From NCBI GenBank assembly GCA_943330235.2, contig CALQGY020000003.1, positions 1-64,000 on the forward strand: a stretch of 64,000 bases of DNA, written 5' to 3'. A program made the translations under genes and the position numbers. This document shows positions 35,285 through 41,705 of this stretch, in pieces. Under the pieces are notes generated by a model. The model searched no databases, was not told the DNA's origin, and saw only the letters and a program-made list of their open reading frames with translations. This stretch comes from Candidatus Kuenenia stuttgartensis (GTDB taxonomy: Bacteria; Gemmatimonadota; Gemmatimonadetes; Gemmatimonadales; Gemmatimonadaceae). Each line of letters begins with the position of its first letter. The first letter of the stretch is position 1.

Positions 35285-37489
35285 ATGTCCACGTACGCCC
35301 CGTCCCATCGCGTCGCGCACCGCGCGTCTAGCGCGTCTAGCGCGTCTAGCGCATCAAGCGCATCTAGCGCCGCAAGCGCGTCCAGTGCGCCACGGTCGCC
35401 CCACGTCAGCGCTGGCAGCGCGGCGCCGACCGCTCCCGCGTGGCCCGTGCGTGACGAGATCATCACGCTGACCGACGTCACCCTCGAGAGCGGCGCGCAT
35501 CTCGCGTCGTTAGCTGTGCGCATTCGCCTCGAAGGCGAGCTCGCGCCCGCGCGCGACAATCTGGTGCTGGTCGTGCATGCCCTCACGGGGACCGTCGCGG
35601 CCACCACGTGGTGGAAGGGCGTGGTGGAAGCCGGCGGGGCCATCGACCCGACGCGTCACGCGGTCCTGACCACCAATCTGCTGGGCGGATGCGACGGGAC
35701 CACAGGTCCCACCAACGACGCCCCGGACACCCTGCCGCCCATCACGACACGCGACCAGGCCGCCGTGCTCGCGCGCGTGCTCGACGTACTGCAGGTGGAG
35801 CAGCCGTTGCTCGTCTGCGGCGGGTCGTTGGGCGGCCAGGTCACCATCGAGTTCGCGGCGTCGTTCCCGCATCGCGTGCGCGCCGCGGTGGCGCTGGCCG
35901 CGCCGGCCGCGCAAACCGCACAGGGGCTCGCGTGGAATGCCATCATGCGTCGCGCCATTGCGCTGGGCGGCGTCGATGAAGGATTGGCCCTCGCGCGCAT
36001 GGTGGGCATGCTCAGCTATCGCACGCCGGCGGGGCTCGAGCAGCGCTTCGGACGCACCCAACGTGCCGACGGCACCTTTCAGGTGAATAGCTGGCTGCAC
36101 GCGCACGGAGACAAGCTGGTCGCGCGCTTCGACGCGACCAGCTACGTCGCCCTCATCAACGCCATGGACACGCACGATGTCGGCCGCGGACGCGGCGGTA
36201 TCGCCGCCGCCTTGGCGCCCGTTGCCGCTCGCCTGACCGGCGTCGGGATCCCCGGCGATCAGCTGTATCCCGCCGAGTCGGTCAGTGAATGGACCGACGC
36301 CGCAGACGCCCGCTACATCGACCTGCACTCGCTGCACGGTCACGATGCGTTCCTGATCGAGGCGGAGGCCGTGAGCGTCATTCTGCGTGACGCGATCACC
36401 CGTGCCTGGCGCGTGAGTGCAAACACCGCGACGACCACGCCCGTGAGCACAGCGCCCGCGACCACAGCGCCCGCCGTGACCACGACCTCGGCCTCGGGGA
36501 CAGCAGCCGGCGTGGCGGTCGGCACGCTCCGAGTGGCGCTGGCCGGATGCGGACATGTGGGTGGTGGCCTGCTCGATCTCATCGCGGCGCGACGTGCCGA
36601 CGACACGCCCATTCGCGTGGAGCGGGTGCTCGTGCGCGACCCCGCGCTCGCTCGGCCCGCGCTCACGAATGCCATCGCGCGTGGACTCGCCCCTGACACG
36701 GCCTGCATCACCAATCCCGCCGCGCTGCTCTCCGATGACATCGACGTGCTCGTCGAAGCCATAGGCGGTACGGGGGTTGCCCGTGCACTGGTGGAAGCCG
36801 CGCTCCGTCGCGGCATTCGCGTCGTGACCGCCAACAAGGCGCTGCTGGCCGAGCGTGGCCCGGAACTACAGGCGCTGGCTCAGGCCAATAAGACTCGCAT
36901 CGATTTCGAGGGCGCCGTCGCGGGCGCCATCCCCATCGTGCGGTGCGTGCGCAGCGGTGCCGCAGGCGTGGGGATTACCTCGTTCAGCGGCATTCTGAAC
37001 GGCACCAGCAACTTTGTCCTCGACCGACTGGCCGACGGCGAGTCACTCAACGATGCCGTCGCGACGGCGCAGCGACTCGGCTATGCCGAGGCCGACCCCA
37101 CGCGCGACCTCTCAGGCGAAGATGCCGAAGACAAGCTGCGTGTGCTCGCGTGGTTGGCCTTCGGCGTGCATCCCGCGACGCTGTCGGTCGAGCGTCAGGG
37201 CATCGACGCCGAGTCGGCCGAGTGGGCAGCGCAGGTCGTGCGCGAAGGCGACCGCGTGAAGCTCATCGCGAGCTGCACACGCGAAGACGGCGGGATTGTG
37301 GCGCGCATCCACCCCACGCGCGTCGCGCACGATGATCCGTGGGCCCGCGTGAGTGGCCCGAACAATCGCATTGTTGTGGAGAGCGACTCCGCCGGCGCGA
37401 TGGTCTTCGCCGGCGCCGGCGCCGGCGGCCGCGCCACCGCCGGCGCCGTCCTGAGCGATGTCCTCCGCAGCGTCACCGAATCCGCGTAA
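35285..37489 (+). CDS. Homoserine O-acetyltransferase (MetX) - homoserine dehydrogenase fusion
   Basis: N-half alpha/beta hydrolase: HALTGTVAATTWW...LLGGCDGTTGP...CGGSLGGQVTIEFAASFPHRVR...GIPGDQLYPAES...HGHDAFLIE; C-half GTLRVALAGCGHVGGGLLDLIA...VTANKALLAERGPEL...FSGILNGTSNFVLDRLADG...DLSGEDAEDKLRVLA. Confidence 0.95.
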   Translation: MSTYAPSHRVAHRASSASSASSASSASSAASASSAPRSPHVSAGSAAPTAPAWPVRDEIITLTDVTLESGAHLASLAVRIRLEGELAPARDNLVLVVHALTGTVAATTWWKGVVEAGGAIDPTRHAVLTTNLLGGCDGTTGPTNDAPDTLPPITTRDQAAVLARVLDVLQVEQPLLVCGGSLGGQVTIEFAASFPHRVRAAVALAAPAAQTAQGLAWNAIMRRAIALGGVDEGLALARMVGMLSYRTPAGLEQRFGRTQRADGTFQVNSWLHAHGDKLVARFDATSYVALINAMDTHDVGRGRGGIAAALAPVAARLTGVGIPGDQLYPAESVSEWTDAADARYIDLHSLHGHDAFLIEAEAVSVILRDAITRAWRVSANTATTTPVSTAPATTAPAVTTTSASGTAAGVAVGTLRVALAGCGHVGGGLLDLIAARRADDTPIRVERVLVRDPALARPALTNAIARGLAPDTACITNPAALLSDDIDVLVEAIGGTGVARALVEAALRRGIRVVTANKALLAERGPELQALAQANKTRIDFEGAVAGAIPIVRCVRSGAAGVGITSFSGILNGTSNFVLDRLADGESLNDAVATAQRLGYAEADPTRDLSGEDAEDKLRVLAWLAFGVHPATLSVERQGIDAESAEWAAQVVREGDRVKLIASCTREDGGIVARIHPTRVAHDDPWARVSGPNNRIVVESDSAGAMVFAGAGAGGRATAGAVLSDVLRSVTESA

Positions 37490-37596: not shown

Positions 37597-39183
37597 TCAC
37601 CGAGCCGAGGCGTCCGGCACCTCCACATCAAACGCGGCGGTCTCCACCACGCCGCGCCGCTTCACCTGCACGAACACGCGATACGCACCCGCGGTCGGAA
37701 ACGCGAAAGGAAAGGCCAGCGATGTCGTGGACGCCGACGACATCGTGGCCGCGTGATCCATGCCGGTCATACGAGGCGCGACCGCCGCTTCGTTGGTCGC
37801 CGCGCGAGACGCCGCGTCGGGCGCCACCGTATCACCACGCTCCCGGCGCATCAACTGCGCCTGCGCCTCCATACTCGCCGTGCCCATCGGATGCAGGTGC
37901 AGGAACACCTGCGCATCGCGTCGCAGCACCATCGCATGCCCCGCCATTCCGAGATACGGCTCCGTGGGCGATAACGTACCATCGGCCTCACGCATGATCA
38001 CCGACAGCCGGAGATCGTGCTGCGCGCGAAGGACGGTGGCGTCAGTGGTCAGTTGCAGCGTCCCACCGGTGGGAAGGACCGCCGCCGTCCCCAACGGCAC
38101 CGCACGCACCGCACGCCACGCATCGTCGGCGTCCGTGAGCGCCGCCACCGACGAGGACATCGCCGCGGCGGCCCCGCCCTCTGACGGAATGACCGGTGCG
38201 ACCGGCACCTCGATGGTATCCACCAGCGTACGTTGCGTGCCGCTTTCAAAGAGCAGATCACCAAAGAGCACATACCGCCCGGCCGGCAGCGGCGGGATGC
38301 GCGTCACGAACGAGTCAGGATGCACGCGCAGTGGATGCAGATGGGCGAGCACACCGTGATCCGGATCGCTGACGAGAAAGAGGTGCATCAACTTGCCGTG
38401 ATCCGGCAGGAGCGCCCCTAACCGATTCGCACGCCATGCGTCATCAACGATGGCGATGGACAACACCCGATCGACATCGAGCGTCCGCACCGCGGTCGTG
38501 ATCGCGAGCGGCCGATAGAGACGACGACCGTACGCGGCCGCTTCGGCATTCCACCACGCCGCGCCCCCAAGCAGTAGCACCGCCACCCCACCGGCGGACG
38601 CCACCATGAAGCGGCGCGCGCGTGTGCGCTGCGCCGCACTCGGTACGACACCCGGTGGCAACGCGGCCTCACGCGTCGCGGCACCGACAATGGTCAGCAC
38701 GCCCGCAATCAGCAGGGCGCCCAGCACCACGAGCAGCACGAGCATGCCGCGCGTCATGCCCAGGGTGCGCGTCGCGGTAGTCTGCAGTGGCACCACCAGT
38801 ACACCGTTGCCCAGCGGTCCTTCCACCGCCACATACACCGAGTATGTGTTGGCCGTCATGATCCAGAGATTGTGCGCCCACACCCCGGGATCCCCCGGCA
38901 CCTTCGCCGCGTCTTCCGCCGGCGGAGCCCCCTTGGTGCCCACATTCCATTGCGCAGCGCGCACGGTGATGCGCGTAGCCTCTCCCTCGAGCACGCGCAC
39001 CAGAATGGGCACCTGCCCCGGCACCACGCCCGGCGGTTCGATCAGTACGCGCACCGGATAGCCGCCCGCCCGTCCTTCGAAGACCACTTGATTGGTCCCG
39101 ACATGCCCGCTCGCCACCAGCCAGGCCAGCAGGAGGCAGGCCACGGACGACAGCCGTCGTGCCAGCACGCGCATCATGCGCAT
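37597..39183 (-). CDS. Membrane-anchored protein: signal peptide, beta-rich N-domain, two TM helices, His-rich C-terminal beta-rich domains; function unknown
   Basis: MRMMRVLARRLSSVACLLLAWLVASGHVGTNQVVFEGRAGGYPVRVLIEPPGVVPGQVPILVRVLEG; TM LVLLVVLGALLIAGVLTIVGA and FMVASAGGVAVLLLGGAAWW; HGKLMHLFLVSDPDHGVLAHLHP and GHAMVLRRDAQVFLHLHP. The ATG at 39183 overlaps the upstream stop (TGATG). Confidence 0.8.
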   Translation of the reverse strand: MRMMRVLARRLSSVACLLLAWLVASGHVGTNQVVFEGRAGGYPVRVLIEPPGVVPGQVPILVRVLEGEATRITVRAAQWNVGTKGAPPAEDAAKVPGDPGVWAHNLWIMTANTYSVYVAVEGPLGNGVLVVPLQTTATRTLGMTRGMLVLLVVLGALLIAGVLTIVGAATREAALPPGVVPSAAQRTRARRFMVASAGGVAVLLLGGAAWWNAEAAAYGRRLYRPLAITTAVRTLDVDRVLSIAIVDDAWRANRLGALLPDHGKLMHLFLVSDPDHGVLAHLHPLRVHPDSFVTRIPPLPAGRYVLFGDLLFESGTQRTLVDTIEVPVAPVIPSEGGAAAAMSSSVAALTDADDAWRAVRAVPLGTAAVLPTGGTLQLTTDATVLRAQHDLRLSVIMREADGTLSPTEPYLGMAGHAMVLRRDAQVFLHLHPMGTASMEAQAQLMRRERGDTVAPDAASRAATNEAAVAPRMTGMDHAATMSSASTTSLAFPFAFPTAGAYRVFVQVKRRGVVETAAFDVEVPDASAR

Positions 39184-40328
39184 CACCGCTGCACCGTGCG
39201 TAACCACTCACCGCGCGCCAGCCCGAGTCGCGCCGACAGAATGCCAAGCACCAGCGCCAGACCGAATCCGCGAACGGTGCCCTGCAGCGGCTCGACGTGA
39301 AAGGTACCGGTCACCACGGGCCAATCGGCCGGCATCATGTACGGGAAATTGTCCGTGCGGAACAGCGCCGTGCGCGATGCATCGCTCATCAGAAAGTTGG
39401 CGAACGGCCACTGCACCAGCGCGAGCGTCACGACAAACAGGGTGCCCACCAGCGCGGCGCGCTGCCATGCGGAACGCGACGCCGTCCGCTGCAACACCAC
39501 ATCGATGACGAAGGCCGGCACGATCAGCAGTAACGGAAAATTGAGCGGAACCATGTGCGTGATCATCTGGCGAATGGGCCCGAGACGGGGCGTCGCCGCG
39601 AACGCCGGCAGGATCCACACCTGCGCGCACATGATCAGCGTATAGACCGCCGCGCTGGCCGTGGCGGGGTACCGCAGCCGCGTCGATCGTCCCGCCGCGA
39701 CCAGCGCAAACGGGAACGCGATGGCCGACACCACATAGAACAGACTGCGATGCATCAGTGGGCGGTCGGTGAACTCGGTGCAGAAGATGGCGATGATGGT
39801 GAGCACCAAGCCACTCGCATAGGCCACGAGCCACGGTGCCGCGGATCGCTCCGGCGTCCCCGCATGGCGCGACTGCGCCGCCGCCGCGAGCGCGACCGCT
39901 CCCGAGAGAATGGCAATGAATCCCAGCGCCAACAACGCATGCGGCGGGCTGATGATCTTGACGTCGAGACCGTACGCGTTGTGCCACCAGTCGTCGAACG
40001 GCGCCGACGTGAGCATGGCGACGGCGCCCCAGATGGCGAGCCATCCGCCGAACGGCCCGTTAAACACGCGCCAGACGGTGACGCCGTCTGTGGGCGGCGT
40101 GGCGCTCCAGAACGAGCGTCGCAGCACCTCGTAGCCGGACACGAGTCCGGCTACGGCACCACCGGTATAAATCACCAGATGCGCCGGCGTCCAGAACGTG
40201 TCGCGACCAATGGACATGTGCCACGAGATGTCCCAGATGAGCCCAACAATCACACACGTCGCGGCAAAGACGACCGCCACCAACTGGCGAGGCAGGGTCT
40301 GCGCGGGGGCATCGGTCAGAGCGGTCAT
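39183..40328 (-). CDS. Polytopic membrane protein of unknown function with PmoC/AmoC-like D-x3-H-x12-H motif
   Basis: MTALTDAPAQTLPRQLVAVVFAATCVIVGLIWDISWHMSIGRDTFWTPAHLVIYTGG...FDDWWHNAYGLDVKIISPPHALLALG; many TM segments; translationally coupled to the downstream gene. Confidence 0.8.
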   Translation of the reverse strand: MTALTDAPAQTLPRQLVAVVFAATCVIVGLIWDISWHMSIGRDTFWTPAHLVIYTGGAVAGLVSGYEVLRRSFWSATPPTDGVTVWRVFNGPFGGWLAIWGAVAMLTSAPFDDWWHNAYGLDVKIISPPHALLALGFIAILSGAVALAAAAQSRHAGTPERSAAPWLVAYASGLVLTIIAIFCTEFTDRPLMHRSLFYVVSAIAFPFALVAAGRSTRLRYPATASAAVYTLIMCAQVWILPAFAATPRLGPIRQMITHMVPLNFPLLLIVPAFVIDVVLQRTASRSAWQRAALVGTLFVVTLALVQWPFANFLMSDASRTALFRTDNFPYMMPADWPVVTGTFHVEPLQGTVRGFGLALVLGILSARLGLARGEWLRTVQR

Positions 40329-40336
40329 GGCAGCGC

Positions 40337-41608
40337 CTACCGGTTTGGATGGATGCCGCGTGCCTGCAGCAGCAGGCGCACGGAGTCTACGGGCAGAGGC
40401 AGTGCACGTCCGCCGCGACTCTCGACCGGCGTGGCCATGAGCAGCGCGTCGTACAGCGCTTCCTCCGTGGCCTCGGTGACGGCCTGAAAGAGCGCGGACA
40501 TGGCGTCGTTCCCCACTTCCTGCGCCGAAACGAGCACCGCGTCGGGGTTGCGTCGCACCGCCTTCGCGGTGGAAAACGCGAGGATGTAGTCCCCGGATCC
40601 ATTGGACGCGCTCGACCCGGTGCGCCCCAACCCCATCACGGCCCGCGCGCCCAGACGTTCCAGATTGCGCGCCAGCAGCGGTGCATCGGTGGCAATCACA
40701 ATCATGCACGACCCGTCGCCTCGTTCGGCACCGGCATCGCCGGGCCCTGCGCTCGCGCCACCACCACCGCCGGGCCGGCGCACGGCCTCGACGTCCCGCT
40801 GGAAGGAAAATCGCCCCAGCAGCTGGCCAATCGGCACGCCGCCCATCTGCAGCACGCCACCGTAGTTCCCCTGCACCAGGACGCCCACGGTATAGCCGCC
40901 CAGCGAGGCCGGGAGCACGCGGGACGACGTCCCGATCCCACCCTTCCAGCCGAACATCACGGTCCCACGTCCGGCGCCCACGCTCCCCTCAACCACGGCT
41001 CCGGTGTCGGCCGACTCCAATGCGCGTACGGCCGCGGCCCCGATCCCGGGGCGGACCCGCGTGCCATTCAGGCCGCCGTCGTTCGTTTCGCCGACCACCG
41101 GATTTATCGAGCGGACCGCCGCATTTTCCGGTTTCCGTAACATCCATTGGGCCATCGCATCGCCCACCTGCCAGATGCAGAGCGTACAAGTGAGCAGCAC
41201 CGGCGTTTCGAGCTCGCCCAGTTCGCGGAGCTGTGTGGAGCCCAGCAGTTTGCCGAACCCGTTGCCCACATGCAGCGCGGCCGGCACGCGGTCGCGATAC
41301 AGATCGCCCGCGTGCGGGATGATCGCGGTCACGCCGGTGCGGAGCGAATCGCCCTCGTTCACGGTCGAGTGGCCCACCCGCACCCCCGCCACGTCGGTAA
41401 TGGCGTTCCAGCGGCCCGTCGCGAAGATGCCCGGCGCCAAGCCGAGCGCGCGGGCGCGGGTGGGTTGTGCATTGAGGGCCGCCGATGGCGCGGCGGGGCG
41501 CAGGGCCGAGAGCAGCAGGAGGCCCACCGCGGCGGCACGCGGCGCACCGAGGCCAGCCCGCCCGCGAAGGAACGCCGCGAGGACGACGAAAACGGATGGT
41601 GAAGACAT
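40337..41608 (-). CDS. P1-family peptidase (DmpA-like)
   Basis: WNAITDVAGVRVGHSTVNEGDSLRTGVTAIIPHAGD...PAALHVGNGFGKLLGSTQLRELGELETPVLLT...VVGETNDGGLNG. Confidence 0.92.
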   Translation of the reverse strand: MSSPSVFVVLAAFLRGRAGLGAPRAAAVGLLLLSALRPAAPSAALNAQPTRARALGLAPGIFATGRWNAITDVAGVRVGHSTVNEGDSLRTGVTAIIPHAGDLYRDRVPAALHVGNGFGKLLGSTQLRELGELETPVLLTCTLCIWQVGDAMAQWMLRKPENAAVRSINPVVGETNDGGLNGTRVRPGIGAAAVRALESADTGAVVEGSVGAGRGTVMFGWKGGIGTSSRVLPASLGGYTVGVLVQGNYGGVLQMGGVPIGQLLGRFSFQRDVEAVRRPGGGGGASAGPGDAGAERGDGSCMIVIATDAPLLARNLERLGARAVMGLGRTGSSASNGSGDYILAFSTAKAVRRNPDAVLVSAQEVGNDAMSALFQAVTEATEEALYDALLMATPVESRGGRALPLPVDSVRLLLQARGIHPNR

Positions 41609-41705
41609 CGGGGGAACGTATCGCGGATTTCGAGCAATTGCTCGCGTGCCCAATCGTTCTGTCGCATCGCTTCACGCCGAGGGCGGAGTCCGGCATATTG
41701 GCCTG

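Follow-up and report, generated by a model that had tools for sequence, protein, structure and literature searches.

Copper membrane monooxygenases (CuMMOs: pMMO, AMO and HMO) catalyse the initial reaction in the aerobic oxidation of methane and ammonia, and there is a long-standing dispute over which of their copper sites is the catalytic one. In the subunit C protein PmoC, the copper ligands of the CuC site are Asp156, His160 and His173, and those of the CuD site are Asn227, His231 and His245, with x3/x13 spacing (PMC12576850). A highly divergent lineage of CuMMOs in Angelarchaeales is encoded by separate A, B, C and X genes and keeps the CuB histidines as well as CuC, with the D-site being absent (PMC9038741). 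The locus described here likewise retains a CuC-type site, but in contrast to the Angelarchaeales enzyme both C-subunit sites are kept and the counterparts of subunits C and A are apparently fused.

The locus lies in a 64,000-nucleotide stretch of a Gemmatimonadota contig (CALQGY020000003.1, positions 1 to 64,000; hereafter the window) and consists of two genes on the minus strand, which we call C-like and B-like. Their features are:

39183-40328, minus strand: C-like gene, 381-aa integral membrane protein with a PmoC-like N-terminal half and a PmoA-like C-terminal half
40179-40232, minus strand: site 1 of the C-like protein, D33-x3-H37-x12-H50 with R42/D43, counterpart of PmoC CuC D156/H160/H173 and R165/D166
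39939-39995, minus strand: site 2 of the C-like protein, D112-x3-H116-x13-H130 with D122, counterpart of PmoC CuD N227/H231/H245 and E237
39186-39773, minus strand: C-terminal half of the C-like protein, residues 186-381, with PmoA-like motifs in PmoA order
37597-39183, minus strand: B-like gene, encoding 528 aa: a signal peptide, then a beta-sandwich whose mature N-terminus is His, a pair of TM helices and two HLHP beta-domains
39103-39105, minus strand: His27 of the B-like protein, predicted N-terminal residue after signal-peptide cleavage (AxA|H or AxG|H)
38335-38400, minus strand: putative metal site 1 of the B-like protein, H262, H267, H281 and H283 (HGKLMH...HLHP), fully or almost fully conserved across 96 sequences
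37891-37947, minus strand: putative metal site 2 of the B-like protein, M413, H416, H429 and H431 (GMxxH...HLHP), conserved in 94-95 of 95 sequences

The C-like reading frame opens with an ATG (MTALTDAP...), and its stop codon overlaps the start codon of the B-like gene by one base (TGATG). The resulting gene order, C(-A?) followed by an overlapping B-like gene, is like that of pmoCAB as far as the weak PmoA assignment of the C-terminal half goes.

Sequence comparisons give good support for homology of the C-like protein to PmoC/AmoC. A search of 177,635 PDB sequences with the window protein alone returned three matches at E<=10, all of them AmoC and aligned through both sites. When a profile built from N-terminal halves across many phyla was the query, all 14 PmoC/AmoC sequences in the PDB took ranks 1-14 of the 177,635 (E 0.013 to 1.0), and the first unrelated protein followed at place 15. 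In line with this, 45 of 49 single members matched AmoC among 24,736 Pfam models (best 2e-5), as against 9 for the next family. In 11 genomes that span several phyla, the C-like gene was among the few matches of the Pfam AmoC model (PF04896) in 10 and the top-scoring one in nine, and a single-genome search reached E=7e-5 (class of 399 genomes). The scores of C-like proteins with this model are 8-23 bits (best 23.1, window gene 8.7) and thus always stay below the curated cut-off of 26.7; control genomes, too, give PF04896 matches at E<=10, and an order-level search around the Mycobacterium genome gave none. Single-pair comparison by hhalign yielded P=7e-6 for the N-terminal half versus PmoC, with reversed controls at 0.11-0.15, and P=2.9e-8 for site 1 alone versus PmoC site 1. 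Site 2 was placed in exact register with CuD by hhalign, hmmsearch and phmmer, but by itself its similarity is not significant (P=0.28). Because the hhalign values are single-pair comparisons and control genomes match as well, we place the weight on the ranking tests, on consistency across genomes and on reversed and shuffled controls. The Methylococcus capsulatus PmoC and PmoA queries and one AmoA query were each borne out by an almost identical sequence in the PDB or on a contig.

The two families share the CuC triad in its RDT..TP.H context, the second triad N/D-x3-H-x13-H with the following acid (E237 in PmoC, D122 in the C-like protein) and P-x-H, and the order and spacing of both sites. 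They differ in that site 2 has Asp for Asn, the N-terminal helices that precede site 1 in PmoC are missing from the C-like protein, and the latter has an extra C-terminal half. The preliminary description had left open the choice between a distant relationship to CuMMO subunit C and convergence; the tests by conservation, by profile and on whole genomes speak for the former, and hhalign, profile rankings and Pfam scans all find similarity to PmoC/AmoC and favor no other family. What had been described as an uncharacterised metal-binding membrane protein is thus PmoC-related with two invariant sites, and its metal would be copper.

Conservation analysis showed that D33, H37, R42, D43 and H50 are identical in 138 of 138 aligned homologues and D112, H116, D122 and H130 in 139 of 139, in both cases across many phyla, so that neither motif can be put down to chance. 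Every C-like homologue has Asp at the CuD position, where PmoC has Asn. Among 38 assembled PmoC sequences, the site 1 residues that are shared with the C-like protein are invariant, as are the CuC and CuD ligands except for a last-position gap in one sequence. Both motifs, D-x3-H-x12-H and D-x3-H-x13-H, had already been quoted correctly in the preliminary description of the 39183-40328 protein, together with PmoC ligands given as D156/H160/H173, which are indeed those of CuC (PMC12576850), and the conservation that it had called for holds for all six ligands.

The apparent duplication noted at the outset is real, as sites 1 and 2 resemble each other (hhalign P=3.4e-8; reversed control 0.095), but it is no oddity of this protein, since it corresponds to PmoC's own CuC/CuD pair. 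In PmoC itself the two sites are no longer similar to each other (P=0.12). We infer a duplicated helical hairpin as the ancestor of the CuC/CuD pair, of which the C-like family may keep an older and more symmetric form. An AlphaFold2 model of the C-like protein (pLDDT 92.5, falling to about 69-78 around site 2) has nine to ten helices, in which D33/H37 end helix 14-39 and H50 starts helix 48-73, and D112/H116 end helix 93-119 and H130 starts helix 128-154. Each triad should therefore sit at the tip of one helical hairpin, with both tips on the same side of the membrane in the model and not on opposite faces.

The C-terminal half carries the motifs RLRYPAT, FP-x10-D (264/265/276), QWP (306-308) and GEW (373-375), with residues 265 and 276 invariant in homologues. 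Comparison of residues 186-381 with PmoA by hhalign gave P=0.0015 (five PmoA sequences) and, with 22 PmoA/AmoA sequences, P=9e-4 (reversed controls 0.65-0.68), and reversed, PmoC and PmoB controls gave P of 0.17 or more. None of 200 block shuffles scored as well, where the shuffles keep 8-column pieces and some that retain the motif score nearly as well. The match is colinear over residues 264-377 through FP-x10-D, WP and G-x-W, with RLRYPAT set against RLPLGAT further upstream in a global alignment. A PmoA chain is also the best fold match of the C-like model in the PDB: Foldseek returned 3rfr_B with probability 1.00 and a TM-score of 0.59 on the target, and among the matches listed it is the one PmoA chain and the others have a probability of at most 0.57 and a TM-score of at most about 0.26. 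In this structure 3rfr_C is PmoC and 3rfr_J is PmoA, and the repeating chain order identifies 3rfr_B as PmoA. In contrast to PmoA/AmoA (PF02461), the half is fused to the C-like part, is about 20% identical where aligned and matches no Pfam model; HMMER searches of the PDB and Pfam with its profile found no PmoA match. No PmoA was found in viral contigs and no match among viral structures by Foldseek. Taken together, sequence and model suggest that the C-terminal half is likely homologous to PmoA, with a possible C-A fusion. It had been stated that no pmoA-like gene is visible nearby; there is no separate pmoA, but the statement is probably wrong in spirit, with a weakly PmoA-like C-terminal half and a B-like gene next to it.

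The B-like protein consists of a beta-domain, two TM helices and two further beta-domains, each with an HxH-type site. The position of His27 is His in 95 of 96 homologues, and position -1 is nearly always Ala or Gly. To PmoB/AmoB (PF04744) it is alike in layout only, with a mature N-terminal His, a periplasmic beta-domain, two TM helices and one or more periplasmic beta-domains. hhalign detected no significant similarity between the B-like family and PmoB, the N-terminal domain has no invariant counterparts of CuB His137 and His139, the second and third CuB His, and PmoB lacks the HLHP sites. The closest relationship is instead to the beta-sandwiches of CopC, YtkA and CrdA, which the N-terminal domain resembles weakly in sequence and in fold. 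In sequence, CrdA is the weak top profile match, and YtkA and CopC are matched by Pfam, CopC in 2 of 31 members and at E>=0.029. In fold, a Foldseek search of the PDB with the B-like model found CrdA (9ll2) with a TM-score of 0.64 on the target and probability 1.00, which is the one meaningful match since the others are mostly large Ig-like proteins with low TM-scores. With CopC the protein also has the mature N-terminal His in common. Unlike in these proteins, the domain is joined to a TM hairpin and two HLHP domains and is paired with a C-like protein. One actinobacterial C-like member runs on behind its membrane part into a soluble domain that resembles FixH/YtkA, and this fusion argues that membrane and soluble parts work together. 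The B-like protein is likely a copper-binding periplasmic partner.

The C-like protein was found in 78 of 298 sampled Gemmatimonadota genomes, about a quarter, and relatives are spread over at least seven phyla of soil bacteria. When one genome was scanned for each species, at least 396 of them were confirmed, under the titles Acidobacteria, Verrucomicrobia, Chloroflexi, Bacteroidetes (Segetibacter, Telluribacter and Chitinophagaceae), Myxococcota and Actinobacteria, and in one "Rhodanobacteraceae" MAG. For this MAG, the class search gave many C-like matches and no true CuMMO, and it may be mislabelled as gammaproteobacterial. Among the cultured hosts are Granulicella, Edaphobacter, Silvibacterium, Segetibacter and Acidipila. 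The B-like gene adjoins the C-like gene in all 20 loci of the phylum and in 69 of 80 cross-phylum loci, several of the remainder being contig ends or single-gene actinobacterial or Chloroflexi forms. No third conserved gene was detected in these 20 and 80 loci, nor did the cross-phylum loci show conserved genes for alcohol, aldehyde or hydroxylamine oxidation near the pair. Neither subunit A (PF02461) nor subunit B (PF04744) scored over its cut-off in any of 18 genomes with the pair. Whole-protein scans of the window's C-like and B-like proteins gave no significant match to Pfam or NCBIfam, PADLOC gave no match, and searches of open-access literature found no earlier description of the family.

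Several observations concern the surroundings and copies of the unit. In the window, a peptidase family S58 (DmpA-like) gene (40337-41653, minus strand) lies upstream of the C-like gene, its end separated from that gene by 8 bases, and the two may share a transcript; this arrangement recurs in close relatives only. On the plus strand, 35285-37489 encodes a 734-aa protein with an alpha/beta-hydrolase domain resembling homoserine O-acetyltransferase and a complete homoserine dehydrogenase, a fusion of two homoserine-acting enzymes. Several actinobacterial loci have a divergent gene for a TetR-type regulator upstream of the C-like gene, a hint of small-molecule induction. On a Rubrobacter marinus plasmid (L034, 4908-6022) the C-like gene is apparently split across two reading frames and may be broken or mis-sequenced. 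One genome carries three C-like copies, so paralogues with different substrates are possible.

The reading that we favor, with modest confidence, is that the two genes encode an oxygenase-like membrane complex that depends on copper and is distantly homologous to the CuMMOs; copper as the metal, the formation of a complex, the activation of O2 and the substrate are features that we infer. In the C-like protein, four helices and the two D/H/H sites that correspond to CuC and CuD would make up a PmoC core, which appears to run on into a PmoA-like half. The B-like protein would be held in the periplasm by its two-helix anchor, offering an N-terminal His and two H/M-rich sites, and would bind periplasmic copper and sit on the C-like protein, which it would load or serve. 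One or both D/H/H sites would then bind copper at the outer leaflet, and the bound copper would activate O2 and oxidise a small membrane-soluble substrate. It is quite possible, though we hold it more tentatively, that the unit represents a branch of the CuMMO superfamily that has gone unrecognised, with C and A joined in a single polypeptide, a CopC/YtkA-type copper protein in place of B, and a CuC/CuD pair that is a near-symmetric duplicate with perhaps both sites filled at once. If so, the PmoC sites and not those of PmoB would be the ancestral core.

Copper trafficking is the main and strongest rival, because the partner is of the copper-handling type and some plasmid copies lie among copper genes. 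The B-like protein would collect periplasmic copper in the manner of CopC, YtkA or CrdA, and the D/H/H sites would relay or store it without any oxygen chemistry. The copper-resistance folds (CrdA, YtkA, CopC) closest to the B-like N-terminal domain fit such a module, as do actinobacterial plasmid copies near genes for a multicopper oxidase, CcsB/ResB, a YHS-domain protein and a BlaI/MecI/CopY-type regulator. However, the C-like protein is related to PmoC and not to a known copper transporter, the RDT/TPxH context at the catalytic-type site is fully kept, and copper-resistance neighbors do not recur in Gemmatimonadota, Acidobacteriota or Verrucomicrobiota, so that we judge this account possible but rather unlikely. 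It is less probable still that a PmoC-fold protein has switched its metal to Zn, Fe or Mn, or its role, and now serves perhaps as a hydrolase, sensor or structural metal protein. The invariable Asp in place of Asn at site 2 could mark such a switch, and the first PmoC crystal structures held zinc in the CuC site (PMC12576850), but the partner has His/Met-rich sites typical of copper, and both sites are strictly conserved together with their second-shell acids. That the D/H/H motifs merely resemble PmoC by convergence is highly improbable. Overall identity is low, site 2 does not stand out by itself against PmoC and some 18 residues at site 1 contribute much of the profile score; yet every solved PmoC/AmoC ranks above 177,621 other sequences, both sites fall in the correct register and order, nearly all single members match Pfam AmoC, and the reversed and shuffled controls as well as a PmoA chain as best fold match speak against it.

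With respect to known classes, the unit is not to be filed as a CuMMO: its proteins stay below the Pfam cut-offs, and it has neither a recognisable subunit B nor a separate subunit A. The CuC Asp/His/His triad of CuMMOs is present, with D33/H37/H50 invariant and aligned to D156/H160/H173. Nor does the unit belong to the CopC/CopD type of uptake and resistance systems, since no CopD model recognises the C-like protein. It is best classed as distantly homologous to subunit C, and perhaps to C and A together.

Since both PmoC-type sites are kept, CuD with Asp for Asn, and no PmoB is recognisable, the unit separates the PmoC sites from the PmoB sites in nature, and the clear internal duplication in the C-like family suggests how the CuC/CuD pair arose. 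Its occurrence in cultured soil bacteria opens metal content and activity to testing. Judged by these comparisons, the unit lies far outside the known family of methane and ammonia oxidisers and points to an uncharacterised copper enzyme; if this is an oxygenase, major soil phyla would gain a capacity for trace-gas or hydrocarbon oxidation that current marker genes miss.
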